32,855 nucleotides of DNA. Source: Candidatus Poseidoniales archaeon. Lineage in GTDB: Archaea; Thermoplasmatota; Poseidoniia; Poseidoniales; Poseidoniaceae. The stretch covers positions 1 to 32,855 of the forward strand of contig QQRW01000015.1 in assembly GCA_003602605.1 (NCBI GenBank), given 5' to 3'. How positions within the stretch are numbered: position 1 is the stretch's first letter; each line of letters begins with the position of its first letter. The notes beneath the pieces were generated by a model. It searched no databases. It worked only from the letters and a program-made list of their open reading frames with translations, and was not told the origin of the DNA. The translations under genes and the position numbers were made by a program. Below are positions 9,105-31,782 of this stretch, one piece after another.

Positions 9105-12100
9105 TCAACGACTCCTACCAATATTGAATATCGCTCTCGACTGAGGTGCTGACCATCCAGTTTCTTGCAACTGCATGAGAATATTACGTTCATTTTCACC
9201 TTCTGCTAGCGAAGAATGAACCCAATCTGCCGCGGATTCCCTGTCTTCAACTTGCCATTCTTCAAAAATCGACAAATCGATGTTCAACTTAGCTTTGCGA
9301 ACTTTGGCTGAAGGTTCTGCATCAGGTTGAGGTTCATCAGCAAATGTAGTCACCTTCTTTGCAGCGGTTTTCACTGAGCGATCGCCACGTGGCGGACCGC
9401 TTGGAGGTTTGCTCGTTCCACCCTTTGGAGGTCCTCCTGGTCCACGTCCCGGTGGTCCGCTAGTAGGCCCTCCCGATGAAGGCGGTTTCGCATTGCTCTT
9501 CGGAGGGCTACCTGGTCCACGACCTGCTGGGAGAGCCGTTGGACCTCCTCGAGCAGGAGCTGCGCGCTGCTGAGGTTTCTGGGCAGTTCGACTGTTCCGG
9601 AAAGGAAGAGGTTCATCCTCTTCGTCATCATCATCCCAATCGTCTTCATCATCATCCCAATCATAGTCGTCACCGCGCCGACGCAAGATGAGGATACCAA
9701 CGAGAAGCACGACCAAAAGACCGATGCCGCCTGCAATAAGGGTGGTTGAACCCAACAAGGAGGAAGTCTCATCCCCGGTGCTCGAATCCTTCTTTGGACA
9801 GCCATCAGAGAAACCATCTGGTCCTGCAGGTTCGTTCGGACAATTATCGATCAAATCAGAGATTCCGTCGTTGTCTGAATCAAGTTGACTCAATACACAA
9901 CCGTTCTCGTCGATGCTGTCTTTCTGTGAATAAGGTGTGTCCGGACATAAGTCTGGAGAGGTGCCGTTCGGATTATCGCCGAGTCCGTCGTAATCTGAAT
10001 CCTCCCATTGAGTTGGGTTCCCTGCAAGGCCTGCAGGTTCAAACTCATCTCGATAGCCATCGCCATCGTCAAAGCAACCGAGGAAGTCAACGAACGATGT
10101 TCCAAACTCAAGCGGGCACTCATCAGCATTATCACCGGCAGGGTTGTCCCCGTAACCATCTCCGTCTTGGTCAAACCATTGCGTTCCATCGGAAGGGAAC
10201 GCATCACCAGATTGGTTTTCACGTAGTCCTGAAGTTTCGTTCAGTGTGTAGATGTAGGTTCCAAAATATCCGTCGCCGTCTGGGTCAGCAGATTCGTCAA
10301 TACAACCATCGGTAAGGACCGGTGTTCCTGAAGGTGTGTTGGGGCACTGATCATCAGCGTCTTTGACACCATCAGAATCCGAATCTCGCTCAGAGGCAGA
10401 ACAACCGTTCTCATCGACACTCTCGCGTTCGCTTTCAATGGTGTTTGGGCACAAGTCAGCAGGACCTGCGACATTATCCATGTCGTCGTCCGACAACAAT
10501 TGCGCCTCGCTGCAACCGTCAGCATCGACTGTTTCGCCGAACGGTGTCAAAGGGCAGAGATCGATATGATTGAAGACAGAATCATCATCGTCATCCAACT
10601 GATTATCCGCACAACCAACTGAATTAACAGAGAGGCCGGAATCTGTGTCAGGGCAAATATCCTCCACATTTGGAATGAAGTCGCCATCATCATCAGTACC
10701 GTCAATGAAACGGCATCCGATACCCGTACCATCAACAAACGGACTCGTTCCTTCCAGAATACCGGGGATTGTAGGACATTCATCGGCTTGGTAACCGTTT
10801 GGATTATCGCCAAAACCATCGCTATCGAAATCAAGCCATTGGCTCGGCTCAGTTGGGAATTCATCTTGAGAATCCATCCAGCCGTCCCCATCCGTGTCCG
10901 GACATCCGGGATAAGGACTGGTTGAGTTGCCAAATACTCCAGGGCAACCGTCGAGCATCAACCCGTTACCGTCGTTCTCAGTAGAATTGTCAGTAATGTT
11001 GTACGAGTCGGTCCAGCGGTCTGGATGTCCGTCAGAATCATTGTCTTCAGCGGCAGCGATGTTATCCGGGAAACGGTCAGGGTTTGTGGCTCCTTCAGAA
11101 TCATTATCTCCGTAGCCATCGCCATCACTGTCAGCCCACTGAGTCGGGTCAAGTGGCCATGCATCTGCGCCAAGTGAGGCATTCCATTCAAATCCACCAA
11201 CGGTCGATGGGTCCGAAGAACCATCAGAATCGGAGTCTGGGCAACCTTTTCTATCACGGAATGAGACTCCATAATCCCACTTGCAGGCATCTCCTTGGAT
11301 TGGATCTGAAGAGTTATCGCCCCAACCGTCGCCATCTGTATCTTTGTATTGTGAGGGATTGAATGGGAATACATCACCAACGGGCTGTCCGGAATCGTAT
11401 TCTGTGATACAGCAATCCGGCCCCGAATTATCGCCGTATCCGTCACCGTCTGTATCCGAAGCAAGTTTCCAATTGAAAATGAATACATCGCCATCGAAAT
11501 ACATGAAATTATTGTTGGACCAACCGTCTTGGTCGTAATCATCGCAACCCATTCGGTCAATCCAAGATTCACCAGAATCATCGTTACAAGCATCGTCAAC
11601 GTCAGCATACCCATCGTTATCAAAGTCAAGACAGCCGTAAGTGAAGTACATCGAAGGAGCATCGCTTGACGGACATGAATCGGTCATAGGACCAAACGCA
11701 TTATCTCCAAAACCATCGCCGTCGTTGTCCGACCATTGATCACCCAAGTGCGGTAATTCATCGACCAAATCGAAAACAAGATCTCTATCGGTGTCAACAT
11801 AGAGTCTGAGAACTTTGTAAACTTGAGCTGTATCGTCTTTGAACGCCATGTGCAATGTTTCGTTGGAATCTCTAAACAAGCCAACGCTGCCAATCGTGGA
11901 TATATCTCCAAACGAGATTGAATTCCAGTGGTACGACGGTTCCTCAGCGTTCAAAGTGTTCCATGTAAGAAGGTTCGATTGGCCAGCACTGGTCATGAGA
12001 ATGTATGTATTGTTCTCGACAGCCAAATCCCAAGTGCTGTCGGAATTCGATTCGGGTTGAGTTCCAAAGGACGACCAAATGCCGTTGGAATCGCGTACAT

Positions 12101-15100
12101 AGAGCACATCGGAATTGGAATCGCCACGAACTGCCATTGCAGGCGAATCTCCTCCTACAAGGTCGATATTGAATGTACCAATAGAGCCTGAGGGTTGAGC
12201 AAGGTTGGATACGGTGACCCAAGAAGAGTCATTGTCCCATGATGAACCGTTTAACTGCCGTTCATGGACGCTAAGTACGCCGGTCGAGGTTATGCTCGAG
12301 ACAATGAGTACACCAGTGTCGGTGACTTCCATTGAAAGGTTACTGGATAAGTCGGTTAATCCTGTGATGGAATTTTCGCTCACATTCGAACCGTTGAAAA
12401 TCCAAACTGACAGATTATGATTTGTACCATCGTCATGAATCAAAGCAACGGCGAGATTTCCGTTTGACAGAATCAAAGGTGCAAAATCACCTGATGCAGC
12501 AGCTCCTTGAGCCCCCAACTCGGTGTTGACCCAATTTCCGCTGACCTCATGTAAGAAGATGAGTTGTTCATTGACAGCATCACGATAAACAGCGGCAGCA
12601 GTGTCGTTCACATCGATGATCACTTGGATAGGATCAGCAAGGTCAACGCCGGTTGAGACGGGAGAATGGGTCCACCCAGAGTCGTCTTCCTGAGACACAT
12701 AAATCACGTACCCACCAACATCTTCTGCAGCTCGCATGAGGTGCTGGTGACCGCTTGAATCGAGTGCTGAACCAAGGAAGGCGCCGTTGGTTTGAGTTGT
12801 GAGAATACCTTGCTCAACTGCAGTGTAACTCGAAGTTGTGTGGAGTTTCAGAGCATTGCTTCCTTCAGTAGCAAGAATGATTGGGCGTCCTGAACTTGTG
12901 CCAGCAAAAGCAAAGTTGGTCTGGCCAGATGGGTCAGTTGGCAGCGTTTTATCAGCCCAAACTCCAGTTGCTGTTCCGTCATCAACGTGTTCCAAGAAGT
13001 GGAGGGATTGAGATGGTTCGAACGAAAGAAGCATACTTGCTTCGCCACGCGTTGAAGTTGACAGGTCAAGGAATCCAATTTCTTCATCAAAAGTGAACGT
13101 TGTCGATTCCCAATCCCGCTCTGAATACAGTTCATGGACAACCTCAAACGATGCTCCAACTGTCTTTCGAACGCTCAAACTAATTTCACTTAGGCCATCG
13201 CCATCTACGTCGCCCATCGAAGACATTGACAAGCCCTTGTAGGATTGAGCTGTACCTGTTGCAAGAAGTTCGTAATCCGCAGTCAGTCCAATGGACGATC
13301 CGAGATGAAGTTCAACTTTACCACTTCGAGTTGCTCCTTGTTGCATTAACAAAATATCGTCATAGCCGTCTTCGTTGACGTCACCGGCTTCGATGAACAT
13401 TCGTCCTAGCATAGCATTGGCGTCATCTCCTAAACGAGACCAATTCGGTGACGAAGAAAAGATGCCAGTGGAAGAACCGTGATACAACCAAACCTTACCT
13501 GCTTGGTACGCGTTGGTACCGTTGAAAAGTTCTGAAAACATCATGTCGTCATATCCGTCTCCGTTAACATCACCTATGTAATCGACTGTGAATCCAAACA
13601 TCTTCCCTTGAACGCTCGATCTGATAGTATCATCTGGTGCAGCGTTTACTCCAAACTCGGAACCGAGGTAGAGTTCTACTTGCGGGAAACCCGAGAATGA
13701 GTCAAAATTGGCTGCGTTGGAGACAAGAAGATCATCGTAACCATCGCCGTTGAGGTCTCCGGAACCGGTGAGCGATTGACCAAGAAGAGTATTTTCTTGG
13801 GTTTGTGAGATGTTACGCAGATGTTCCATGCCGCTCAAATTACCTTTAAAGATCGAAATCTTACCCTTGTAAACAATTTCGAATGGGGTTGTGGCAACAA
13901 CCTCCGAATAATTACCCGAAACAATCGCCAAATCAGCATATGAGTCCCCATTCATAGCCGGAATCTCCTCAATCTTCCAGCCAAAGCCGTCTCCTTCGTT
14001 CCCGGTATGATTCCACCATGAATGGGCTTCAAGGCCAGTTGAGTTACCAAGATAAATTTCGACCAAGCCGTTATCACCAAAACCGTTTGGTTGTGAAGTA
14101 TTCCAGCCCGAAGAACCGATGGCAACATCAGCAAAACCATCGCCATTGAAGTCAGCCACAGAAATGTCTGAACCGAGTCGTTGACCTGCTTGTGTCCCGA
14201 GAATCGAGTGAACCGTGTTCGAAAGACCATTTGATGAGCCGAGCCGAACCGAAACTTGTCCGATTTCAGAATCCGTTGAAGAAAAATCTGGTTCAGCGTA
14301 AATGAAATCATCAAAGCCGTCTGCATTTACATCAGCAAATACAGATGCACCTTCTTTTGACGACAACGTCATTGAAACTTCAGTATTTGGAACAGGGTCA
14401 ATTCGACCTTCGTTTTGTCCTGAGAGACTGCGAAGGAGTTGCAGACTTGTTACGCCTCCAGACTCAGAGGTTGTTGCAATCTGTTCGAGTGCATTGGTGT
14501 CGAGCCCCATGCCGATGTGGTCTACTAAATTGGAGTCGCGCAGTAAGACTCGACGGTCGTAAGTGGTTCCATCGTATCGTATCAAACGCACTTCTTCACC
14601 AGCAGTGTAGAGAAGGTGTGCTACACCTTCCGCATCCATTTCCAATTCCATTGAATGGCCGACTGGGCCTGCATCAAGCAACTGGCTGTACCAAATGTTG
14701 CCGCTGTAATTCATCTCCCACAGAGAGCCATTTACATCTCTGAAGACTGCGTATTCAAGTTGTTTTTCAGGCAAAACGACCATTTCCAATTCTGTTGGGT
14801 GAACGTCATACAGAACGGTTATTTTCTGCCAGGTTTGTTCCGAATAGACCGAGTTTTGGAACGCAATATGTGCTGACTTAATGTTAGCGCCATCGGCATA
14901 GAGCACATACTGGCGTCCGTTCTCATTGACTGCCAATGCACAGTCGACGAGAGTTGATACACTCGAAGCTGCGACAGAATCTACCAGATAAGTCGTCCAT
15001 ACAGATGCTGTAGGGTCTTGAGAAGAAACATCCACATTGTGTGAACCGACAAAAACATCTCCTTCAATGGTGGTCCAACAAGCATCAAATCCTTCATCGT

Positions 15101-15419
15101 GACTCATTTTCAAATCTGGAGTACCCATGGTATGGTTTGGAAAGGATGCAAACGTTTCAGACATCCAGTAATCCAGTGCTGAGTCTTCACGAACTGTTGC
15201 GCTTGGCAATCCATCGAAAGCCAACTCGGTTCCCGCAAAATCGTGCCCATATGCGTCATTAAGGCCAACATAAGGGCTACTGGATTGAACCGAATCGCCC
15301 TCCAAATCGGCTTCGACCTCTGTCAATGGTTGAACCATTGGTGAGAGAAGATGCATCAAAAACAACAAAGAAAGCAGCAACGAAACCGTGGGAAAAGTTC
15401 TGCTCGCTGACGCCGCCAT
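9105..15419 (-). CDS. Giant FG-GAP / TSP3 cell-surface protein with C-terminal membrane anchor
   Basis: A 2104-residue predicted surface protein. From the ATG at 15419 it begins with a signal peptide (hydrophobic run SLLLSLLFLMHLLSP). Residues about 30-355 are an unrecognised beta-rich region, possibly a propeller. Residues about 360-750 carry seven FG-GAP-type repeats with calcium loops such as DFNGDGFAD, DLNGDGYDD and DVNGDGYDD. A second beta-rich region spans about 750-1200. Residues about 1210-1875 are TSP3 repeats with loops such as DNDGDGFGDN and paired Cys. A membrane helix (LIAGGIGLLVVLLVGILIL, about 1890-1908) is followed by a very acidic run of Asp and Trp, a Pro/Gly/Lys tail, and a short helical end domain with WVHSSLAEG and ETGW. 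The longer frame from 15572 adds 51 residues before the signal peptide and is rejected. Adhesion or sensing is only inferred from the domains. Confidence 0.93.
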   Translation of the reverse strand: MAASASRTFPTVSLLLSLLFLMHLLSPMVQPLTEVEADLEGDSVQSSSPYVGLNDAYGHDFAGTELAFDGLPSATVREDSALDYWMSETFASFPNHTMGTPDLKMSHDEGFDACWTTIEGDVFVGSHNVDVSSQDPTASVWTTYLVDSVAASSVSTLVDCALAVNENGRQYVLYADGANIKSAHIAFQNSVYSEQTWQKITVLYDVHPTELEMVVLPEKQLEYAVFRDVNGSLWEMNYSGNIWYSQLLDAGPVGHSMELEMDAEGVAHLLYTAGEEVRLIRYDGTTYDRRVLLRDSNLVDHIGMGLDTNALEQIATTSESGGVTSLQLLRSLSGQNEGRIDPVPNTEVSMTLSSKEGASVFADVNADGFDDFIYAEPDFSSTDSEIGQVSVRLGSSNGLSNTVHSILGTQAGQRLGSDISVADFNGDGFADVAIGSSGWNTSQPNGFGDNGLVEIYLGNSTGLEAHSWWNHTGNEGDGFGWKIEEIPAMNGDSYADLAIVSGNYSEVVATTPFEIVYKGKISIFKGNLSGMEHLRNISQTQENTLLGQSLTGSGDLNGDGYDDLLVSNAANFDSFSGFPQVELYLGSEFGVNAAPDDTIRSSVQGKMFGFTVDYIGDVNGDGYDDMMFSELFNGTNAYQAGKVWLYHGSSTGIFSSSPNWSRLGDDANAMLGRMFIEAGDVNEDGYDDILLMQQGATRSGKVELHLGSSIGLTADYELLATGTAQSYKGLSMSSMGDVDGDGLSEISLSVRKTVGASFEVVHELYSERDWESTTFTFDEEIGFLDLSTSTRGEASMLLSFEPSQSLHFLEHVDDGTATGVWADKTLPTDPSGQTNFAFAGTSSGRPIILATEGSNALKLHTTSSYTAVEQGILTTQTNGAFLGSALDSSGHQHLMRAAEDVGGYVIYVSQEDDSGWTHSPVSTGVDLADPIQVIIDVNDTAAAVYRDAVNEQLIFLHEVSGNWVNTELGAQGAAASGDFAPLILSNGNLAVALIHDDGTNHNLSVWIFNGSNVSENSITGLTDLSSNLSMEVTDTGVLIVSSITSTGVLSVHERQLNGSSWDNDSSWVTVSNLAQPSGSIGTFNIDLVGGDSPAMAVRGDSNSDVLYVRDSNGIWSSFGTQPESNSDSTWDLAVENNTYILMTSAGQSNLLTWNTLNAEEPSYHWNSISFGDISTIGSVGLFRDSNETLHMAFKDDTAQVYKVLRLYVDTDRDLVFDLVDELPHLGDQWSDNDGDGFGDNAFGPMTDSCPSSDAPSMYFTYGCLDFDNDGYADVDDACNDDSGESWIDRMGCDDYDQDGWSNNNFMYFDGDVFIFNWKLASDTDGDGYGDNSGPDCCITEYDSGQPVGDVFPFNPSQYKDTDGDGWGDNSSDPIQGDACKWDYGVSFRDRKGCPDSDSDGSSDPSTVGGFEWNASLGADAWPLDPTQWADSDGDGYGDNDSEGATNPDRFPDNIAAAEDNDSDGHPDRWTDSYNITDNSTENDGNGLMLDGCPGVFGNSTSPYPGCPDTDGDGWMDSQDEFPTEPSQWLDFDSDGFGDNPNGYQADECPTIPGILEGTSPFVDGTGIGCRFIDGTDDDGDFIPNVEDICPDTDSGLSVNSVGCADNQLDDDDDSVFNHIDLCPLTPFGETVDADGCSEAQLLSDDDMDNVAGPADLCPNTIESERESVDENGCSASERDSDSDGVKDADDQCPNTPSGTPVLTDGCIDESADPDGDGYFGTYIYTLNETSGLRENQSGDAFPSDGTQWFDQDGDGYGDNPAGDNADECPLEFGTSFVDFLGCFDDGDGYRDEFEPAGLAGNPTQWEDSDYDGLGDNPNGTSPDLCPDTPYSQKDSIDENGCVLSQLDSDNDGISDLIDNCPNEPAGPDGFSDGCPKKDSSTGDETSSLLGSTTLIAGGIGLLVVLLVGILILRRRGDDYDWDDDEDDWDDDDEEDEPLPFRNSRTAQKPQQRAAPARGGPTALPAGRGPGSPPKSNAKPPSSGGPTSGPPGRGPGGPPKGGTSKPPSGPPRGDRSVKTAAKKVTTFADEPQPDAEPSAKVRKAKLNIDLSIFEEWQVEDRESAADWVHSSLAEGENERNILMQLQETGWSAPQSRAIFNIGRSR
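9800..11800 (-). repeat. TSP3 Asp-rich coding repeat array (stalk of the giant surface protein)
   Basis: Imperfect repeats with loops of the type DxDxDGxGDN, often preceded by QW and followed by CP and GC. On the plus strand they appear as recurring CCATCGCC, CCGTCTCC and ATTATC units. Repeat spacing varies, so this is a protein-level repeat rather than a satellite. Confidence 0.85.
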
Positions 15420-15470
15420 GCTGTCATGACGCCCGCCTTCCTTGAAAACGCTTCTTGACAATTGTGATGA

Positions 15471-15489
15471 TGACCCCCGTAGGGGGTCA
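15471..15489. promoter_or_regulatory. Hairpin/operator-like palindrome upstream of the giant surface-protein gene
   Basis: TGACCCCC-GTA-GGGGGTCA is a perfect 8-bp inverted repeat with a 3-nt centre. It lies 52 nt upstream of the ATG at 15419 and 72 nt upstream of the divergent thiamine pyrophosphokinase ATG at 15561. A closely similar element stands before the second TSP3 gene. It cannot be a terminator of a flanking gene, since both neighbours point away from it. It may be a protein-binding site or a leader hairpin. Confidence 0.5.
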
Positions 15490-15560
15490 GTTATCTCGCC
15501 GGTCAAAACCTCATCGAAAAGCGACGGTTGTTTTGTCAATGCGGAGCGATTGGGAGTGGT

Positions 15561-16193
15561 ATGTACGGCCAAGCATTTCTCATCATTGCCAATGGTGAAT
15601 GGCCGCCTGAAAGGATTTGGTCGCCACTAACAAAGCAATCGACATGTATCATTGCATGCGATGGTGCAGCTGCTCAATGTGTTGAAAACGACGTGAAAAT
15701 AGACGTCATTATCGGAGATATGGACAGTTTATCTGAACACGATGAAATTCGACTCCGGAATGATTCAAATGCTGTTTTCGTCCGCCAAACCGGCCAAGAA
15801 GAAAATGACCTCGCAAAAGCCATGAAATGGTCGATCGAACAAGGTGCGGAGAGCATCGAAGTATTTGGTATCGAAGGAGGGGACTTTGACCACCAATTTG
15901 CAGCCATATTGTCGTTGAGTGAGGTTCCTTTCAACACCCGTATTCATACCTCCCAATCGATCATCCAACGCGTAGGAAAATCGCAACTAACGATACCTTC
16001 TATAGAAAAAAATACTTCCTTTTCTCTGTTTGCAGTCGGACCGGCAGAAGGGGTAAATCTTGCTGGAGCCGAATGGCCCCTCGCCAACCAAACGCTGTCA
16101 CCCGGAACCAGAGGTATTCACAACAAATCAACCGGAGAAGAATTGCAAATCCAGTGCTTGTCTGGAGAACTACTCCTCTTTTTGGACAGGTGA
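15561..16193 (+). CDS. Thiamine pyrophosphokinase family protein
   Basis: Predicted to transfer pyrophosphate from ATP to thiamine to make thiamine diphosphate, in the cytosol. From the ATG at 15561 the product has 210 residues, matching the family. Motifs seen are LIIANGEWPP near the start, ACDGAAAQC (the ADGG-like nucleotide loop), IIGDMDSLSE (the conserved GDxDS), then QEENDLAKAMKWS, which corresponds to the family's D-x-TD-x-xKA segment, and FGIEGGDFDHQFAAI, matching the GxxGxRxDH motif with Arg replaced by Phe. The ATG follows GGGAGTGGT; an upstream start at 15528 lacks support. It is divergent from the giant surface protein and its last 24 nt overlap the 3' end of the convergent DUF4105 gene. 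Confidence 0.85.
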   Translation: MYGQAFLIIANGEWPPERIWSPLTKQSTCIIACDGAAAQCVENDVKIDVIIGDMDSLSEHDEIRLRNDSNAVFVRQTGQEENDLAKAMKWSIEQGAESIEVFGIEGGDFDHQFAAILSLSEVPFNTRIHTSQSIIQRVGKSQLTIPSIEKNTSFSLFAVGPAEGVNLAGAEWPLANQTLSPGTRGIHNKSTGEELQIQCLSGELLLFLDR

Positions 16194-17036
16194 AGCAGGA
16201 AGATGCCGCCGCAGCATCTCAGAATAACTACCCTCGCCATTCCATTGTTGGGCGACGAGGTCAATTCTTGCCTTTTCAAGAGTCGTCTCCAATCCACCCC
16301 AATCCTCGATTAAGCCGAGTTTCAGCGCTGCTCGAGGCGTGTAGCCTGGGAGAAAATTACGCCAGAGAAACGGAACTCTTCCCGGAGTAACTCGGTTCAC
16401 CATGCGTACGATCGAAGTATTGCAAGTGGTAAGGAGTGAATGGTACCATTCTGGTTCTTGGGACAATTGATTTGCTTTCTGCGCCATTCGAATCAACATG
16501 TGTTTATCTTTCTCCGGGGGAGTAATGGCACGAAACATGTAGTCTTTATTCCCACGAGCGTTCGTTCGCAATCCGGTCATATCACTCTCAAGAGCGACTA
16601 AGAGATACAATTCATAATTCCTCCACAACCCGTCCCAAGGATGGTATCGATGCTTGACTCTTCGACGAGCCTCAAAAGAAAACGAAAGACAAGTTCCATC
16701 GTTGAATTCGAACGTCAGATAGGTGTGTGCGAGCCCATGCAGGGAATGAAAGTGATCAACAATGAACCATATATCCTTGATTTCCTCAGTATCGACGGTG
16801 AGTTCATCAATCCAAGATTCATCTCTATCTTTGGTGGTTCGCCATAAAAAATTGCGAACATTACGAAAGGTGATTTTGGAATCAACAATTTCTGTTGTCG
16901 TAATGAATTCACAATCTGAGTTCCAGTTTGCGGTAAGTTGGGGTTGGCGTGGTCGAACGCGAATAAACCAAATCATGAGCGGCAAAAAAACAACAACCAG
17001 CAATACGCCCAGAGATACCTCGATCAATGTACTCAT
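16170..17036 (-). CDS. DUF4105 (Lnb-like) membrane-anchored enzyme
   Basis: A 288-residue protein with one N-terminal membrane helix (about 8-25) and a DUF4105 domain (about 60-215). In bacteria this domain occurs in Lnb, which moves an acyl chain within the lipoprotein N-terminal lipid. Family features seen are NFLWRTT, LAHTYLTFEFNDG with His104, SFSFEARR with Glu122, RNYELYLLVALESD, and EWYHSLLTTCNTSIV with Cys205; His104 and Cys205 are the natural catalytic candidates, by inference. The ATG at 17036 starts 5 nt after the stop of the upstream gene; a GTG at 17048 would overlap it by 7 nt. Basic residues just after the helix leave the topology uncertain. It is the last gene of the TSP3 operon and overlaps the end of the convergent kinase gene. 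The true substrate in an archaeon is unknown. Confidence 0.75.
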   Translation of the reverse strand: MSTLIEVSLGVLLVVVFLPLMIWFIRVRPRQPQLTANWNSDCEFITTTEIVDSKITFRNVRNFLWRTTKDRDESWIDELTVDTEEIKDIWFIVDHFHSLHGLAHTYLTFEFNDGTCLSFSFEARRRVKHRYHPWDGLWRNYELYLLVALESDMTGLRTNARGNKDYMFRAITPPEKDKHMLIRMAQKANQLSQEPEWYHSLLTTCNTSIVRMVNRVTPGRVPFLWRNFLPGYTPRAALKLGLIEDWGGLETTLEKARIDLVAQQWNGEGSYSEMLRRHLPASPVQKEE

Positions 17037-17041
17037 CGATA

Positions 17042-18364
17042 TCACCACTTATGCCAGACTCGCAACTGTGTGTCCCACCAGTCGGTCGTGCCGTCGGGAT
17101 GTTGGCGCCAAAGAACGCCTTCATCATCCGTGATAGTTGGTAGGCCTCCAGTATCAGGAGATCCATCTGCAAGAATCATAGGTGTTGGGCCAAGGTCACG
17201 CAGTTGGCCTACTGTACCTTCGTCCTTGACTCGCACGAGCAGCACGAAGACAACGATACATACAACAAGCCCCAGAATGCCGATTGAGAACCAACCTACT
17301 GACTCTGTTTGAGTGTCCTCGCCGAATGAACGGCTTGGAAGCGATGCTGCTTCTTCTTCAGTGAGATCGAGCCCCGGAAGTCGAACGAGATTTACCCCAT
17401 GTACAGTACGGATCTGTTCATTGTTGATGACTTCAAGCGTGATGAGGTGTACGCCTGCAGGAAGTATCTTGCAATCATAACTCGTGCTGCTGTTACCGGG
17501 GAGGGTAGAGCCTTGAACGGTCCAAATTTTCTCAAAGGTAGAAAAATCGACTTCACCCATGTTCGGAACCATAGTAATTTGGCAAGGCTCGTCGGTCATG
17601 TTTTGATTGCCAACAACGTCGAGTGAAAACGCTGGAGCTGGACGGTTGTGAATGGTGAGATTCAACCAATACTCTGCGGTTTGGCCCAAGTCATTTCTGT
17701 ATGCTTCCTTGAGTTGATATTCACCCGCTGGCCAGTGTGAACAATCCAATGTCGTTTGATTGTCGAGCACGGTAAAGGGTGCACCGGAGAAAGTTCGAAC
17801 CCCTGATGCCCCATAACGAGGTCCAGTCTCATCTGCAAAAACGCGATGAATAGAACACTCATCACCCGTTTCTATCCTGTCCGGAGCGTCGAGTTCCAAC
17901 ATCAATTGAGGAACTTGAAGTGCTGGTTTGAGAACATAAGTCGGCAGTTGGATACTTGTGATTTTATCTCCTGCCTGATTAATGAAGTCGAGTCGAAGAG
18001 CGTGTTCACCGGATGACCAAGCATCGTAGACAAGGCTGGCATTGGATTGGCCTGACAAAGCGAGGTACTGGTCTTCTTGAACTTCCTTATCCTTGTGTGT
18101 GCCAAACAATCGTAACTCGATTTCAGTAAGTTCTGAAGTGGTATTGAGAATCACGACAACACGTATTGCATCGGGTTCACCGTCTTGGTTCATGTCCATA
18201 GTGTCGTTTCGTAATGCGACTAAAGTCAATCCTTCTTCAGCCAAAGCTTCGTCAGTTGACGGGTTCTCTGCAACAGCCACATCAACAATTCCAAGAGGTG
18301 TGACCAAGCATCCAAGAAGGAGGAGAGCAAGGAAGAATGGGAGCGTTCTGTGTGAATTATTCAA
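17042..18364 (-). CDS. Secreted single-pass membrane protein with Trp-rich cytosolic tail
   Basis: Not recognised by family. The product has 440 residues. It starts with a clean signal peptide (SHRTLPFFLALLLLGCLV). The ectodomain (about 35-345) looks like three or more Ig-like beta domains, with four to six Cys in short pairs and many N-x-S/T sequons; an Asp-rich DMNQDGEPD occurs near residue 57. A membrane helix at about 351-376 (IGILGLVVCIVVFVLLVRV) is followed by a 64-residue tail ending in WRQHPDGTTDWWDTQLRVW, a WW/DUF2510-like pattern. I choose a TTG start at 18364 because a perfect AAGGAGGTG lies just upstream; the next in-frame ATG upstream (18407-18409) is inside the preceding gene. 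The start overlaps the stop of the TSP3 gene by 8 nt, so translation is probably coupled. The DUF4105 gene follows directly. Confidence 0.85.
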   Translation of the reverse strand: MNNSHRTLPFFLALLLLGCLVTPLGIVDVAVAENPSTDEALAEEGLTLVALRNDTMDMNQDGEPDAIRVVVILNTTSELTEIELRLFGTHKDKEVQEDQYLALSGQSNASLVYDAWSSGEHALRLDFINQAGDKITSIQLPTYVLKPALQVPQLMLELDAPDRIETGDECSIHRVFADETGPRYGASGVRTFSGAPFTVLDNQTTLDCSHWPAGEYQLKEAYRNDLGQTAEYWLNLTIHNRPAPAFSLDVVGNQNMTDEPCQITMVPNMGEVDFSTFEKIWTVQGSTLPGNSSTSYDCKILPAGVHLITLEVINNEQIRTVHGVNLVRLPGLDLTEEEAASLPSRSFGEDTQTESVGWFSIGILGLVVCIVVFVLLVRVKDEGTVGQLRDLGPTPMILADGSPDTGGLPTITDDEGVLWRQHPDGTTDWWDTQLRVWHKW

Positions 18365-20933
18365 CCGTTTCACCTCCTTGAAGTGGGGCAGGTTGGAGTT
18401 CTGAAGCATTCATTCCCTCCGGTATTGGGAGCGGCGGCAAATCCTCCAAAGGAATCATTGAACCTTGGACTGCTTCCATGGTGAGAGCGTCTAAGTTGGC
18501 AGATTCTTTGGATTCAAATAAATCATCTTCGAGCGTATCCTCGTCGCGACCCATTCGAACAATCAGTGCAAGAGATGCTCCGAGAATGAAGCCAAACCCG
18601 ATAACCAAATAGGTGAGCCACGAGGCTGCTGGGTCTTCACCTAGAATAGCAACCGCCGCAGAGAACTCGCCGTATGAGTCAGACCAGCCATCGCCGTTGG
18701 AATCAACACAACCCTGCGTATCACGCATTGAATAGCCTGAAGTATTTGGACAATCATCACGCAATGCACCCAGTGGAACATCACCAAAGCCGTCACTGTC
18801 AGAATCCCGCCACTGCAATGATTCTGTAGGGAAAGAGTCTGCAGTGCCAAAGGGATGTGCTTGCCAACTTTCGGTTGGGTCAGACCATCCGTCTCCGTCA
18901 GTATCTCTACACCCTAATCGATCGAGAAGAGAAGTGCCGCGTACTTCAGGACAAGCGTCTCCTTGATTGCCGTTTACATCATCGCCGAAACCGTCCCCAT
19001 CTGTGTCTCTCCATTGGGTTGGCTCGTGAATGAATGCATCTCCGAGGTCTGACCATCCGTCACCATCGGTATCTGGGCAACCCCAGCGGTCACCGCCTGA
19101 CGATGGACCAACCGATGTACCTGCTTGGCTGGGGCAAACATCTGCAGTTGTCCCGAGTGGGTTGTCGCCTCGGCCATCACCGTCAACATCGTGCCATTGC
19201 GTATGGTCCATAGGCCAAGCATCACCGTTGCCACCTGGGCTCGCTAGCCACGTACTGGTTGGGTTAGACCAACCGTCCTCGTCACTGTCAGGACAGCCCC
19301 ATCGGTCGAACGTCGAGGTGCCGAGAGTTGTTCTGCAACCATCACCACGGTAAGCAACACGAAGCGTTTGCCCGTCGAAATATTCAAGATTGTCACCGTA
19401 GCCGTCATTATCTGTATCGAACCATTGGCTTTCGTCCATTGGGAATGCATCTGCAAATCCATCCGGATGAGCAATCCAATCATCGGTAGGGTCGGAAAAA
19501 CCATCTTGGTCTACATCCCTGCATCCGAGTCTGTCGGCATAGGAAATCCATCCGGACTCCACTTCTTCAGCGGAGGAAAAGACACACACATCTCCCTCAA
19601 ATCCTTCAAGAATATCTCCATAGCCATCACCATCCGTGTCCCTGTATTGGGACGGAACGAATGGGAAATCGTCAACTTGTGTTGCCCCGTATGTTTGGTT
19701 ATCCCCCCAACCGTCCTCATCAGAATCGGACCACTGCGTAGGATTATCAGGGAAGTCATCCACCAATACAGCGCCTTCAGATTGATTGTCACCCCATCCG
19801 TCAAAGTCGCGGTCTTGCCACTGAGAGGGTTCATCTGGGAAAGCATCTGAACCATCCGTTTTCGTCCAGTTCAAATCACCGTCTGAATATCCGTCGCCGT
19901 CTGAATCGGTACACCCGAATCGATCACCAGTCGATGAACCGGTAATGAATGGACATGCATCGGGAGTTGAAGCTGCATCAAGCCAAGAACCAATCCCCCA
20001 AGCAATTCGGGATTGATTCCACGTCACATCCTCCCAATTGTCCCCGAATCCATCAGCATCAGTGTCGTTCCACTGCGTGGCATCGAGGGGGAAGGCATCG
20101 CCGAATCCAACAGGATGGGCGTACCATGCCGTCACACCATCAAGTGCTCCTGGATCTTCATCAGAGTAGCCATCGCCATCGCTGTCTAAGCATCCGAATC
20201 GGTCTTGTTGAGAATAACCTCGACGGAAAGGACAGTGATCGCCTTGGAATCCGTCCAGATTATCGCCATACCCATCGTTATCGCTGTCGAGCCATTGAGT
20301 TGAATCGGTCACAAAAGCATCGGCTCCGTTTTGAGGACCCCACGATGAATCTGGGTCAGACCAGCCGTCGCCATCGACATCTGTACACCCTTTACGGTCG
20401 TTTGTCGAAGTACCTACAAGGTCATCGCAGTCATCTTCGTTGTCGATAAAACCGTCTTCGTCTGTATCTCGATTGGATTTGTCGATTGATGGTGTAAGTG
20501 TGTAATCAAAGCCATCGTTGCACCAAGAATCCTCAGATTTAATTTTCACAAAGATATATCCTGCCGTATTTATCGAAGTGGAAAGGACCTTTGATGCAGC
20601 ATTGTCGTCCGCCGAGGTATCTGTGATGGTCGCACCTTGAGAGTTCAATATCGAGAAGCGACCTGTCCATCCATCACCGGGACACCACCATGCCGGACCG
20701 TTCATCGTGCCTGAAAAGGCAATTTGGACAATGTCTCCCTTGCGGGCCTCAATCTTCCAAAAATCAGCTTGGTCTCTTCCGGCATCACAGTCAGGATCGC
20801 AGACATAACCGTTCGATGTAACGCCATCTGTCAACGGGCTTGCACTCTGAATATTATCGTCTGCAGACACTGGTGGGAGCATCGAAAGCATCATCGCGGC
20901 CAGCGAGATGGCCAACATCCGCTTCGCGAGCAT
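18357..20933 (-). CDS. TSP3-repeat cell-surface protein with C-terminal membrane anchor
   Basis: An 858-residue predicted surface protein. The signal peptide is MLAKRMLAISLAAMMLSMLP, cut near VSA-DD. Residues about 26-155 resemble a pre-peptidase C-terminal (PPC) beta domain, with ADFWKIEARKGDIVQIAFSG and several Cys. Residues about 155-760 are TSP3 repeats arranged in seven larger units, each with a DSDGDGWSD loop, a QWxDxDxDGxGDN loop, a CP and a DRxGC. A membrane helix (about 769-791, WLTYLVIGFGFILGASLALIV) and a 65-residue acidic tail complete it. The domains suggest a calcium-stiffened stalk on the cell surface; the ligand is unknown. The ATG at 20933 follows GGGTAATC and a leader with two hairpins. 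Its stop overlaps the next gene's start by 8 nt, so it heads a three-gene operon with the Trp-tail protein and the DUF4105 enzyme. Confidence 0.92.
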   Translation of the reverse strand: MLAKRMLAISLAAMMLSMLPPVSADDNIQSASPLTDGVTSNGYVCDPDCDAGRDQADFWKIEARKGDIVQIAFSGTMNGPAWWCPGDGWTGRFSILNSQGATITDTSADDNAASKVLSTSINTAGYIFVKIKSEDSWCNDGFDYTLTPSIDKSNRDTDEDGFIDNEDDCDDLVGTSTNDRKGCTDVDGDGWSDPDSSWGPQNGADAFVTDSTQWLDSDNDGYGDNLDGFQGDHCPFRRGYSQQDRFGCLDSDGDGYSDEDPGALDGVTAWYAHPVGFGDAFPLDATQWNDTDADGFGDNWEDVTWNQSRIAWGIGSWLDAASTPDACPFITGSSTGDRFGCTDSDGDGYSDGDLNWTKTDGSDAFPDEPSQWQDRDFDGWGDNQSEGAVLVDDFPDNPTQWSDSDEDGWGDNQTYGATQVDDFPFVPSQYRDTDGDGYGDILEGFEGDVCVFSSAEEVESGWISYADRLGCRDVDQDGFSDPTDDWIAHPDGFADAFPMDESQWFDTDNDGYGDNLEYFDGQTLRVAYRGDGCRTTLGTSTFDRWGCPDSDEDGWSNPTSTWLASPGGNGDAWPMDHTQWHDVDGDGRGDNPLGTTADVCPSQAGTSVGPSSGGDRWGCPDTDGDGWSDLGDAFIHEPTQWRDTDGDGFGDDVNGNQGDACPEVRGTSLLDRLGCRDTDGDGWSDPTESWQAHPFGTADSFPTESLQWRDSDSDGFGDVPLGALRDDCPNTSGYSMRDTQGCVDSNGDGWSDSYGEFSAAVAILGEDPAASWLTYLVIGFGFILGASLALIVRMGRDEDTLEDDLFESKESANLDALTMEAVQGSMIPLEDLPPLPIPEGMNASELQPAPLQGGETVE
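18371..18379 (-). promoter_or_regulatory. Strong Shine-Dalgarno site deciding a TTG start
   Basis: Reading the minus strand, AAGGAGGTG lies 6 nt before the TTG at 18364 and inside the end of the upstream TSP3 gene. It is the strongest ribosome site in the window and moves the start 45 nt downstream of the first in-frame ATG. Confidence 0.75.
18660..20470 (-). repeat. TSP3 Asp-rich coding repeat array (second surface protein)
   Basis: About seven super-repeats of 55-120 residues, each with two or more Asp-rich loops and a Cys pair; the first loop is DxDGDGWSD-like and the second QWxDxDxDGxGDN. The same super-repeat occurs in less regular form in the giant protein at 9105-15419, so the two genes share ancestry for this segment. 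Confidence 0.85.
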
Positions 20934-20946
20934 GATTACCCAAGAG

Positions 20947-20968
20947 GCGGTGTGCCTATGAACACCGC
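20947..20968. promoter_or_regulatory. Second hairpin in the leader of the TSP3 operon
   Basis: GCGGTGT, an 8-nt loop, then ACACCGC form a 7-bp stem 14-35 nt upstream of the ATG at 20933. It follows the CCCGTAGGG hairpin and together they would make a structured leader if transcription starts above both. No matching second hairpin was seen before the gene at 15419. Confidence 0.35.
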
Positions 20969-20977
20969 GCCCTGCAC

Positions 20978-20994
20978 AACACCCGTAGGGTGTT
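20978..20994. promoter_or_regulatory. Hairpin/operator-like palindrome upstream of the TSP3 operon
   Basis: AACACCC-GTA-GGGTGTT is a perfect 7-bp inverted repeat with a 3-nt centre, 45 nt upstream of the ATG at 20933. The centre CCCGTAGGG is identical to the element before the giant TSP3 gene. It also lies after the stop of the glycosyltransferase gene, so a terminator role is possible here, but no T-run follows it on the minus strand. Confidence 0.5.
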
Positions 20995-21050: not shown

Positions 21051-22349
21051 TTAGGAGGTCGCACTCTGTGATTCTACGCTTTTCCACGACTTGGTGGCAT
21101 TGAGATATATGCCTTCATAGGCTTCGGCATTGTGTTCGTAAGTGTAGTGGTCCAAGACTCGCTCTCGGCCCCGGCCAGCCTGAGCAGTACGACCTTCGGG
21201 GTCTTCAAGAGAACGGCATACTGCTTTCGCTAAGTCGCTCGGATTTCCAGTTTCAAACAATTCTCCAACGGTTGAGTCAATCATCTCAGTGAGTGGCGCC
21301 TGATTCACGGTAACGACTGGCGTTCCACTGGCTAAGGATTCGAGTGGAATTAGGCCTTGACCTTCGTAGTACGAAGGGTAGACAACGAGATCAGCAGAAC
21401 GGAAGTGCTGTGCTAAATCATCAAAAGACATGCTACTGCGAATAAATAATGCATGTTCGACTCCTAATTTCCGAGCATTCTTTAGCAGTCTTTTCTTCAT
21501 ATGCCCTCTGCCAACTATGACCAGTCTTGCACCAGGGTGCTTTTCTAAAATAGCGGGGAGTGCTCGAATCAAGGTCATGTATCCTTTCCTCGCTACAAGT
21601 CTTCCGACTGCTAAAATCATTGGAGTTTTGGTTTCTGCCATATAGGTCAAAGCAAGCTCGTCTCCACAGTCGTAAGATGAACGAATTTTCTCGTGAGTTA
21701 ATTGCTCCTCCTCATCATCTTGGTTCGGAGGTCGAAACACCTGATGATCGCAACCCCATAATACAACTTCACAGTTGAAATTTTCAGATGGCTCATACCA
21801 ATTTTCGAATTCTGAAAGTGTCGATTTTGAATTAGAAACACAAACTGTCGACTCTAGAATTCCTGCTCTCTCGTATTTTGAATAATACTTACCAGTTAAC
21901 CTTATTGCCAGATCATTTGGATTCCTCCAAGTCGCTGATTCCTTCGCCTTTGCTGCTCTGATCACTCCTTGCTTCTCACCTAACCAAGAGCCGTGCAAAG
22001 ATGAGCAAACTGGAGCGATATTCTCTTCCATGAATCTGAATTCTTTCCTCGAAAAAGATGCTAAAGGCAAATGGATATGTATCACATCTACGGCTTCTAA
22101 ACGATGGAGATGCTTCAGGGCTTTTAATGAATTTTTGGCATATGAACGAGTAAAAGCCATCGGGGCCTTCAACCAGGGCACCTCTATGACTGAAACACCC
22201 GATTGTACAGGTGCTTTACCCTTGTGAGAACGCGTGATTACACTAACTTGATGACCACGTGCTGCTAAATGACCTGCAAGATGGAACACTACGGAACCAA
22301 TACCGCCCCATCTTGGAGGATATTCTCCAGCAATCATAGCGATGTGCAT
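21051..22349 (-). CDS. Glycosyltransferase family 4 protein
   Basis: Predicted GT-B glycosyltransferase that uses a nucleotide sugar, at the inner face of the membrane. The product has 432 residues. The N-terminal half opens with MIAGEYPPRWGGIGSVVFHL, the usual GT4 glycine loop, then HLAARGHQVSVITRS. The C-terminal donor-binding half has AVGRLVARKGYMTLIRALP, RLVIVGRGHMKKRL, then the E-x7-E motif in EGQGLIPLESLASGTPVV and a GELFETGNPSDLAKAV tail. Acceptor and sugar cannot be read from sequence. It is divergent from a GT2 enzyme and upstream of the TSP3 operon on the same strand, separated by a 117-nt gap containing the two hairpins. A role in glycosylating surface proteins (the ectodomains are rich in N-x-S/T) or lipids is inferred from neighbours only. 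Confidence 0.92.
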   Translation of the reverse strand: MHIAMIAGEYPPRWGGIGSVVFHLAGHLAARGHQVSVITRSHKGKAPVQSGVSVIEVPWLKAPMAFTRSYAKNSLKALKHLHRLEAVDVIHIHLPLASFSRKEFRFMEENIAPVCSSLHGSWLGEKQGVIRAAKAKESATWRNPNDLAIRLTGKYYSKYERAGILESTVCVSNSKSTLSEFENWYEPSENFNCEVVLWGCDHQVFRPPNQDDEEEQLTHEKIRSSYDCGDELALTYMAETKTPMILAVGRLVARKGYMTLIRALPAILEKHPGARLVIVGRGHMKKRLLKNARKLGVEHALFIRSSMSFDDLAQHFRSADLVVYPSYYEGQGLIPLESLASGTPVVTVNQAPLTEMIDSTVGELFETGNPSDLAKAVCRSLEDPEGRTAQAGRGRERVLDHYTYEHNAEAYEGIYLNATKSWKSVESQSATS

Positions 22350-29565: not shown

Positions 29566-31782
29566 TCACAACAAACTGTGCAATCTCGCCTCAAGTTCTT
29601 TCGCCGCTCGTGGGCAACCTGCTGCTCGATGTTGGGTTATTGCTTCTTTGAGTGCGACCCGCTTCAGTGAAGGCATGAGGTGCGATTTGCAAACCCACCA
29701 TCGAGCATGAAGTCGATGAAGCATTATGCTCCCAGGAGATGAATTCGGTTTGGTGACTTTCATAAAATGCTCATGTGCCAAATCGATATCGATTTCCAGC
29801 AACGCCTCAACAAGAGACAATCGCAGAGCATCTTGATGGGTTGTGCTGGGTTGGGAGTCAATTGCCCGAAGGGTAGATTCAACAAAGGTTGAGACTTGTG
29901 TTGGATTTTCTTTCATTTTAACTAGTCCTGATTTGGCTTCAAGACCCATGATTAGCCCATTGGTCAAACTGGAAATTGAAGAGAGGTTTGAGCGTAACAT
30001 CTCAGCTTTCTTGAAGTCACGCTCGGCCAAAGCAAGGGCATGTTGAACCATCGTTAGCGCTACGAGTGTCACGGCGCGTTCTTCAGGGATTTCAGGTAAG
30101 ACGATGTTTGAAAGATAGTGTTTGATATCTTTGACAGCCTCTTTACTGAGGGATGGCGAAACACGATCGTCGAGGCGCCGGGATGCTGCAGAGAGTGCCA
30201 ACTGATTTTTTTGATGTTGAGTACCAATTTTGAACCCGTTCTCTATACTCCGTTCAGCGTCTTGAACCCGTCCTTCTAGGAAAGCCAGACCAATACTAAT
30301 TTCATTGTTTGAACTTTCATCTTCGATGTGTGACACATGCCGATGAGCGTGTTTTGGTTCGCATCGTTCAAGTGCAACTTTAGCGGCAAGGTAATGGAGG
30401 TGCGAAGGTGTTTTAGAAGTTTCAATTGCCTGCTCTAAAAGGACTGAAAGTGCGTTGCTGCGAGTGGGCGATAAGCGGTCATAGGCGGTTGTACAGTGTG
30501 TATCTAGATGTTCTGATTGAGCGCAGATACGATGGAAAAGAAGAACGACATAGTCATCAGGAGTTTCAGCGCATGCCTCCCAGTGTTCTACTGCCAAACG
30601 GTGTAATTCTTGCTTTTCATCGTTCGACATTGAAGTACGACGTACATTTCGAACAAGATGCTGAATCTCCATCTTTTCCATATTTGCAGTCCAGCGCAAG
30701 AATGCATAGTCGTCAAGTGTCCCTACGATTTCTCCGTCGTGGGCTTTCTCAGCTTCAACCGGCTGTGGAAGTAACACCAAATGATCCATTCCTGAACGAG
30801 TAGACTGATCTAGTGAAGAAAGAACGACATCATTGACATAGGATTGAATATCGGCGTTTTCTTCTGGTAATGCTGTATCTTTTTGATACAATTGTAAAGC
30901 GAGTGGATGGCCTCCAAGCCGCTCGGCAATGTGAACAGATTCCTTACTTGGCAACGCCGAACCGAGTAATTTCACGGCATCACCGGTTTCAAGCGGAGGG
31001 ATTGAAACACGATTCATGGCTTCGAATTCGGGGAGTGCTTCTCTACCAATGAACAACATCTTCGGACCATTGAGGCCTTCCATGCGCCGGCAGATGGACA
31101 CAAATGTGCCTAAATGTCTCGAGGAAATCATGTGTACGTCATCGAAGACCAAAACTTCGTCTTTGTATTGCTGAGCCAAATGCTCTGCCAATGCATCCGC
31201 ATCGCTGGGAAGTTCACTGGAGATTGACATGGAGCGGCATAGCGTTTCAAAATCTGAAAACTCATTCGCCGTAGTCCATCGTACGTTTGACCCGTTGGAA
31301 ACCATTTTTTCAGCAGCCGCAAGTCCAACGGTGGTTTTGCCAATGCCGGGTAGACCACTGATGAAAACACAGTGCTGTTGATTGATTTCATCAAAAACTG
31401 TCTCGACCAATGATGAGCGACCGTATACTGTGCCGAGCGAAGGAGCATCACCAAACATTCTGCCTTCAGAACTGCTCTTGCGAGGTTTCGATGTATCTTC
31501 GCCCATCGTGGAAAGATGATTTCGACCCTTCTCGGTAAGGTGGTACACATTTCTTCGTCGTGAGCCTCCCCCAATCACATGCGCCATTCTTTTGAAAACG
31601 AGTTCTTGCTTTTCCAATTTTGTAAGAGGGACATTCAGCGCTGAACGAACAACACCGAGTGATTCACTTATCCCTGGCAGGGAAATTTCTCGAGTCACAT
31701 CCCATGCTTTTTCAAGACTAGGAGAGTAATTCCCAAGCCACCTCAAGAGACGCTCCTCTGGCATGGAGAGTTTCTCTGACAT
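29566..31782 (-). CDS. Winged-helix STAND/NB-ARC-like ATPase with helical repeats (MalT-like architecture)
   Basis: A 738-residue putative signal-responsive switch. Residues 1-95 look like a winged helix-turn-helix (LTKLEKQELVFKRM, then the wing SRRRNVYHLTEKGRNHL). After a linker comes a STAND-type NTPase: YGRSSLV entry motif (120-126), Walker A GLPGIGKTT (143-151), Walker B VLVFDDVH (210-217), sensor-like KMLFIGREALP (241-251), and GGHPLALQL (290-298), the GxP motif of the winged part. Residues about 400-738 are helices, probably TPR-like. The layout is that of nucleotide-gated regulators (MalT/AfsR-like) with the DNA-binding domain moved to the N-terminus. The ATG at 31782 follows TTAGGAT. 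No membrane segment. Target and trigger are unknown; autoregulation or control of the nearby surface genes is possible but not shown. Confidence 0.88.
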   Translation of the reverse strand: MSEKLSMPEERLLRWLGNYSPSLEKAWDVTREISLPGISESLGVVRSALNVPLTKLEKQELVFKRMAHVIGGGSRRRNVYHLTEKGRNHLSTMGEDTSKPRKSSSEGRMFGDAPSLGTVYGRSSLVETVFDEINQQHCVFISGLPGIGKTTVGLAAAEKMVSNGSNVRWTTANEFSDFETLCRSMSISSELPSDADALAEHLAQQYKDEVLVFDDVHMISSRHLGTFVSICRRMEGLNGPKMLFIGREALPEFEAMNRVSIPPLETGDAVKLLGSALPSKESVHIAERLGGHPLALQLYQKDTALPEENADIQSYVNDVVLSSLDQSTRSGMDHLVLLPQPVEAEKAHDGEIVGTLDDYAFLRWTANMEKMEIQHLVRNVRRTSMSNDEKQELHRLAVEHWEACAETPDDYVVLLFHRICAQSEHLDTHCTTAYDRLSPTRSNALSVLLEQAIETSKTPSHLHYLAAKVALERCEPKHAHRHVSHIEDESSNNEISIGLAFLEGRVQDAERSIENGFKIGTQHQKNQLALSAASRRLDDRVSPSLSKEAVKDIKHYLSNIVLPEIPEERAVTLVALTMVQHALALAERDFKKAEMLRSNLSSISSLTNGLIMGLEAKSGLVKMKENPTQVSTFVESTLRAIDSQPSTTHQDALRLSLVEALLEIDIDLAHEHFMKVTKPNSSPGSIMLHRLHARWWVCKSHLMPSLKRVALKEAITQHRAAGCPRAAKELEARLHSLL

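Follow-up and report, generated by a model that had tools for sequence, protein, structure and literature searches.

Two genes for large secreted proteins in a contig of a Candidatus Poseidoniales archaeon are each preceded by a perfect inverted repeat with the same centre, CCCGTAGGG, and the locus raises the question of what these dyads do and which genes they serve. A sequence-only reading of the 32,855-nt stretch that we analyzed (the window) had proposed a control element shared by TSP3 surface-protein genes, working either as a leader hairpin or as a dyad operator. Site 1, TGACCCCC-GTA-GGGGGTCA (15471..15489; 8-bp stem, 3-nt loop), and site 2, AACACCC-GTA-GGGTGTT (20978..20994; 7-bp stem, 3-nt loop), neither of which is assigned to a strand, were both confirmed where that reading had placed them. 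It was also correct that CCCGTAGGG occurs at these two places only within the 33 kb; in 100 dinucleotide shuffles the mean was 0.07 copies, and two copies never occurred. The dyads do precede the chosen starts, but the gaps between the stems and the minus-strand ATGs at 15419 and 20933 are 51 and 44 nt rather than the 52 and 45 nt given.

Site 1 lies between divergent genes, as had been recognized. On one side is a minus-strand gene (9108..15419) for a secreted protein of 2104 aa with a signal-peptide-like N-terminus, FG-GAP repeats and 17 DxDxDG motifs, and on the other is the gene for thiamin pyrophosphokinase (TPK; 15561..16190, plus strand). Site 2 is flanked by two minus-strand genes, with a secreted DxDxDG-rich protein of 858 aa (18360..20933), likewise with 17 DxDxDG motifs, encoded downstream and a group 1 glycosyltransferase (21054..22349) encoded upstream. 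Folded as single-stranded DNA, sites 1 and 2 gave -8.0 and -5.5 kcal/mol, respectively; because the folding program assigns the same energy to GTA and TAC loops, any special stability of the loop would lie beyond what these values show.

The proposed link to TSP3 genes did not hold. Pfam gave no TSP3 match in either of the large window genes (9108-15419 and 18360-20933), so the label reflects the DxDxDG motif alone, and only 2 of 13 DxDxDG-rich genes carry a dyad, both of them in the window; nine other secreted DxDxDG-rich genes are without one. Dyads also stand before unrelated genes, which speaks against a TSP3-specific element: in this genome they precede the genes for threonyl-tRNA synthetase (ThrRS), PurL and a zinc carboxypeptidase, and in the genus g11 many precede housekeeping genes (S3Ae, EF-2, Rpb6, a pyruvate:ferredoxin oxidoreductase subunit and phytoene synthase). 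When dyads with any loop and a stem of at least 5 bp were tallied in the sampled half of the genome, they preceded 12 of 63 large secreted genes (at least 600 aa) versus 9 of 713 others (Fisher P 5e-9), numbers that are approximate because simple rules were used, hydropathy for signal peptides and ORFs for genes. Several of the nine other genes are divergent neighbours.

The two window sites belong to a family of mini-palindromes placed just before genes; in some marine Poseidoniales a genome has about 10 to 45 of them. The 2.02-Mb assembly contains 14 copies of CCCGTAGGG: 13 form perfect dyads, their stems 5 to 8 bp long, and the remaining one, inside an open reading frame, is without arms. 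Across the ~1.09 of 2.02 Mb sampled in stretches for genome-wide statistics, CCCGTAGGG reached a stem of at least 6 bp in 11 of 13 cases, versus 414 of 17909 (2.3%) for other triloop 9-mers with a 3-bp stem (P ~1e-16), and among 1905 types of such 9-mer it alone extended to at least 6 bp. When the inner CCC/GGG was kept constant, long arms were found around GTA/TAC (12), GAA/TTC (3), TAA and ATA (one each) and a few other loops, while GCA and GGA, which were expected to be equally stable, were absent among the long-armed sites. Since loops such as GAA, ATA and TAA occur, the CCCGTAGGG pattern alone undercounts the family. Fifteen of 60 intergenic triloop hairpins were of the CCC-N3-GGG type, and the remaining ones had no common pattern. 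Dyads of the same build with GAA, ATA or TAA loops were seen before further large secreted or membrane protein genes of this genome (L044 near 4988, L067 near 6951, L045 near 1318 and L042 near 6912).

CCCGTAGGG clearly exceeded its reversed control in several genera of both Poseidoniales families examined, an excess generally missing elsewhere in the phylum. The site 1 pattern had, among the matches listed, orthologues in contigs named Poseidonia and Candidatus Poseidoniaceae; the bacterial matches in that listing seem to be unrelated. We regard the family as real, order-specific, promoter-associated and apparently undescribed; open papers on promoters, start sites and regulons of Poseidoniales or marine group II yielded nothing on such dyads. 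A repeat or mobile element was considered and rejected, as the only sequence common to the sites is the 9-bp core and their orthologous positions are conserved. Separately, and again among the matches listed, TGACCCCCNNNGGGGGTCA recurs several times in Calothrix genomes (L358, L386, L420, L377 and L407) and is repeated in one Armatimonadetes bin (L403 and L417); these copies are probably unrelated repeats.

What the arms preserve is pairing rather than primary sequence, as had been suggested from the two window sites. At 104 unselected sites from five genomes in two genera, which include mutual orthologues and so are not all independent, pairs 4, 5 and 6 (outside CCC/GGG) were Watson-Crick in 92, 94 and 86 cases, where independent arms with the same letter frequencies would give 37.5, 27.9 and 28.2; the 13 dyads of this genome alone gave the same pattern. 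Pair 7 was Watson-Crick in 52 of the 104, and pairing from pair 8 outward was at or below chance, a sharp stop after 6-7 bp. The arms themselves vary widely from locus to locus, with all four letters used and 27 distinct 6-nt arms in 81 sites; this genome has 10 such arms in 12 sites, and genome G033 has 17 in 25. Stem length was 6-8 bp in 46 of 47 assigned sites, with a 3-nt loop and a closing C-G pair that follows from the definition of the core. Single-defect sites comprised one G-T, three A-C and seven other mismatches, and thus gave no sign on either strand that wobble is tolerated.

Within the genus the arms are nearly fixed at each locus (site 1, the ThrRS gene and a gene for a 1376-aa protein). 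Site 1 was present in 33 of 36 same-genus genomes, as a single copy except in one genome with two, and its arms were identical in 30 of the 30 best TPK-locus orthologues of the genus, among which TPK identity falls to ~41%. Site 2 is less conserved, with copies at 5 of 30 syntenic loci, some of them reading TGACACCC-TAC-GGGTGTCA. Between genera, arms are replaced symmetrically at similar positions: before a gene for a 1144-aa protein TGACCCC becomes TGTCCCC, CGGCCCC or CTGCCC, and before the ThrRS gene CAACCCC becomes CGACCCC or CGCCCCC, again with compensatory change. Loops swap at orthologous loci while the arms stay unchanged. Read in the TPK sense, the site 1 loops were GTA (24), ATA (13), TAC (7), TAA (3), TAT (3), AAA (2) and GAA (1); in some species orthologous sites have ATA, TAA or TTA, loops outside the GNA type, in place of GTA. 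A 2-nt spacer occurs at site 1 in one same-genus species (G128:C1:404700-405500, L464), where the dyad reads TTGACCCCC-TT-GGGGGTCAA (TTGACCCCCTTGGGGGTCAA) with the arms kept.

These replacements bear on whether the arms are under selection at all. A 9-bp protein site could have had its flanks made palindromic by template switching during replication, leaving the arms as an unselected mutational by-product, and inversion of GTA to TAC between fixed arms is indeed what template switching within a hairpin should produce. We consider this account very improbable, because selection is implied by the sharp limit at 6-7 bp, by arms that do not vary within the genus and by arms that are exchanged symmetrically from genus to genus while the distance to the start stays near-fixed. 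The dyads look functional.

Spacing identifies the gene to which a dyad belongs. The distance from site 1 to the ATG of the secreted gene was 47-52 nt in 41 of 52 genomes, while that to TPK varied, mostly between 49 and 89 nt, so we assign site 1 to the secreted gene; this near-constancy on one side only agrees with the earlier suggestion that the dyads are tied to the surface-protein genes and not to their neighbours. The dyad of the 1376-aa gene lies exactly at -53 in every genome that keeps it, that of the 1144-aa gene at about -65 in most genomes and that of ThrRS at about -27. In an alignment of 30 site 1 orthologues, a AAGCGTTTTCAAGG block was conserved between the dyad and the ATG of the secreted gene and a GGTGGGTTTGACAA block between the dyad and TPK; little else was conserved besides the arms, for which the information content is inflated by the selection of part of the set by the exact arm pattern. 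In the window, the promoter-like block on the secreted-gene side is AAGCGTTTTCAAGGAA (15438..15453, minus strand), which both the 30-sequence alignment and a set of 40 unique sequences show to be conserved; its TTTTCAA part lies ~25-28 nt before the ATG. A GGCCATCTCTATATGC block is likewise conserved before the 1144-aa gene, between its dyad and its start codon, and upstream of the dyad there is little conservation at either this gene or site 1. At the ThrRS gene the dyad falls between a conserved GTGATGGTTTGATGA block and the AGGAG ribosome-binding site, directly before the latter, and would overlap the start region.

A weak genome-wide A+T peak ~28 nt before starts suggests short or no leaders. 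The pooled A+T profile around dyads had no visible TATA peak, for which the orthologue alignment was needed, and we found no mapped start sites for Poseidoniales in the open literature. Judged from conservation, then, the dyads would lie upstream of the core promoter, and the conserved promoter-like blocks between dyad and start codon indicate that the dyad is probably untranscribed. Conserved blocks GGTTTGATGA (L001, upstream of ThrRS) and GGTTTGACAA (L075, upstream of TPK) may be the local equivalents of a TATA box.

This placement weighs on the leader hairpin of the sequence-only reading, in which the dyad would fold in the 5' leader of the downstream mRNA as an attenuator, a stability element or a protein-binding hairpin. 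Leader RNA hairpins bound by CsrA-type proteins have a conserved apical loop on a covarying stem, and the Poseidoniales dyads resemble them in both respects, a variable stem with a conserved cap being typical of protein-bound RNA hairpins; the ThrRS dyad, immediately before its ribosome-binding site, would also suit such a role. Unlike those hairpins, however, the dyads have a loop of free orientation (in gene sense, GTA at 24 sites and TAC at 23, with swaps at one and the same locus), lack G-U pairs and apparently lie outside the transcript, given the promoter-like blocks that separate dyad from start to either side of site 1 and likewise before the 1144-aa gene. The lack of a G-T preference argues against RNA, and Rfam returned no match in the window. 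An RNA leader element is thus improbable. Still less credible, to the point that we give it hardly any weight, is an intrinsic terminator or 3' processing hairpin of the upstream gene. Some dyads in tandem arrangements do lie 5-25 nt after the upstream stop codon, but many sites are between divergent genes, no T-run follows the dyad and the fixed distance is to the downstream start; none was found between convergent genes, although these account for 39 of the 384 gaps of at least 40 bp (~10%). The argument from the divergent genes at site 1 had already been made against a terminator, and gene arrangement across the genome bears it out.

A near-fixed position upstream of a conserved promoter-like block, arms that stay unchanged across the genus for site 1 and for the dyads of ThrRS and the 1376-aa gene, free orientation and a 3-nt spacer fixed in nearly all sites are all compatible with an ordinary palindromic operator, where a dimeric factor would bind CCC-N3-GGG half-sites in double-stranded DNA and activate from upstream of the core promoter or repress from downstream of it. 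Dimeric archaeal regulators such as TrmBL1 and MsvR use palindromic operators of fixed half-site sequence, located upstream of BRE/TATA or between TATA and the start. The dyads are like these operators in their near-fixed place relative to the core promoter, as judged from conservation, and in having targets scattered over the genome. They differ in sharing only CCC/GGG, the outer half of the arm being free but self-complementary. A dimer of fixed specificity cannot make outer positions that use all four letters covary (92, 94 and 86 of 104 against 37, 28 and 28), and the covariation is therefore incompatible with a plain factor site whose half-sites are independent; one paralogous factor would be needed for each arm sequence. 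Moreover, the commonest centre, GTA, is not symmetric. The dyad operator of the earlier reading, taken in its ordinary sense, leaves the covariation unexplained. A factor that binds the double strand is the strongest rival to a DNA hairpin, yet we think it unlikely.

We instead tentatively favour, at a little short of an even chance, the possibility that the dyads are genome-wide promoter elements that work as folded DNA. In combination, a free stem, a fixed cap, strict pairing, a fixed short length, independence of orientation and a position upstream of the promoter suit a DNA hairpin that is recognized through its cap. Each dyad, placed just upstream of a core promoter or, for some genes, within it, would combine a fixed cap, CCC-[GTA; less often GAA, ATA or TAA]-GGG, with three to four further perfectly Watson-Crick pairs whose sequence is free between loci. 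Negative supercoils, for example from gyrase or transcription, could extrude the small hairpin, which the C-G-closed triloop would stabilize, and a protein or the transcription machinery may then read the cap and raise or lower promoter activity. Such reading would link a set of genes, in this genus many of them for cell-surface or secreted proteins, with DNA topology or with a single hairpin-binding factor. A GyrA-type protein is among those encoded in the genome. Some observations count against this DNA-hairpin model: the identity of the site 1 arms in 30 of 30 orthologues is more sequence constraint than a free stem needs, and the near-invariance of arms within the genus suggests extra sequence reading; the ATA, TAA and TTA loops and the 2-nt spacer fall outside the GNA type and do not fit the loop rule of the N4 hairpins described next; and the GCA and GGA loops, for which equal stability was expected, are missing from the long-armed sites.

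The promoter of the bacteriophage N4 virion RNA polymerase is the closest studied case. It is a short hairpin extruded by gyrase-made supercoils, which requires a closing C-G pair and a loop with 5'G and 3'A, its other stem bases being free provided they pair (PMC4496689). The Poseidoniales dyads share with it the short stem, the three-base C-G-closed loop and the promoter-proximal position, as well as variable stem bases that need only pair (at the 104 sites and at loci compared between genera). In this genome the dominant loops, GTA and GAA, have the 5'G and 3'A, whereas ATA, TAA and TTA at orthologous sites differ. Unlike the N4 hairpins, the dyads occur at many loci of a cellular archaeon, presumably with a normal archaeal core promoter downstream, have a CCC/GGG core and are free in orientation to the gene; no single-subunit RNA polymerase is implicated, and extrusion is what we infer here. 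By analogy, and more speculatively than the folded-DNA reading itself, the dyads could be cellular, chromosome-wide promoter mini-hairpins, an archaeal counterpart of those of N4, that are recognized by their capped fold and switch genes for surface proteins (in some genera also for translation and metabolism) by supercoiling.

To our knowledge, no cellular organism has been described with genome-wide covariation of promoter stems in DNA, as opposed to RNA. If the DNA-hairpin reading is true, an abundant marine archaeon would allow a direct test of the long-standing question whether genes are regulated by small cruciforms in vivo. Were a protein to read the duplex instead, the dyads would still amount to a regulon-like signal, large and conserved, for proteins of the surface and for secreted ones, in archaea about whose gene regulation hardly anything is known.

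Another inverted repeat, GCGGTGT-N8-ACACCGC, occupies 20947-20968 of the window, downstream of site 2 and before the ATG of the 858-aa gene. Viral contigs contained one exact match to TGACCCCGTAGGGGTCA. Finally, the 738-aa protein encoded at 29569-31782 of the window has an AAA/nSTAND-like ATPase domain preceded by a weak PadR-like winged helix, and is possibly a large STAND-type regulator.
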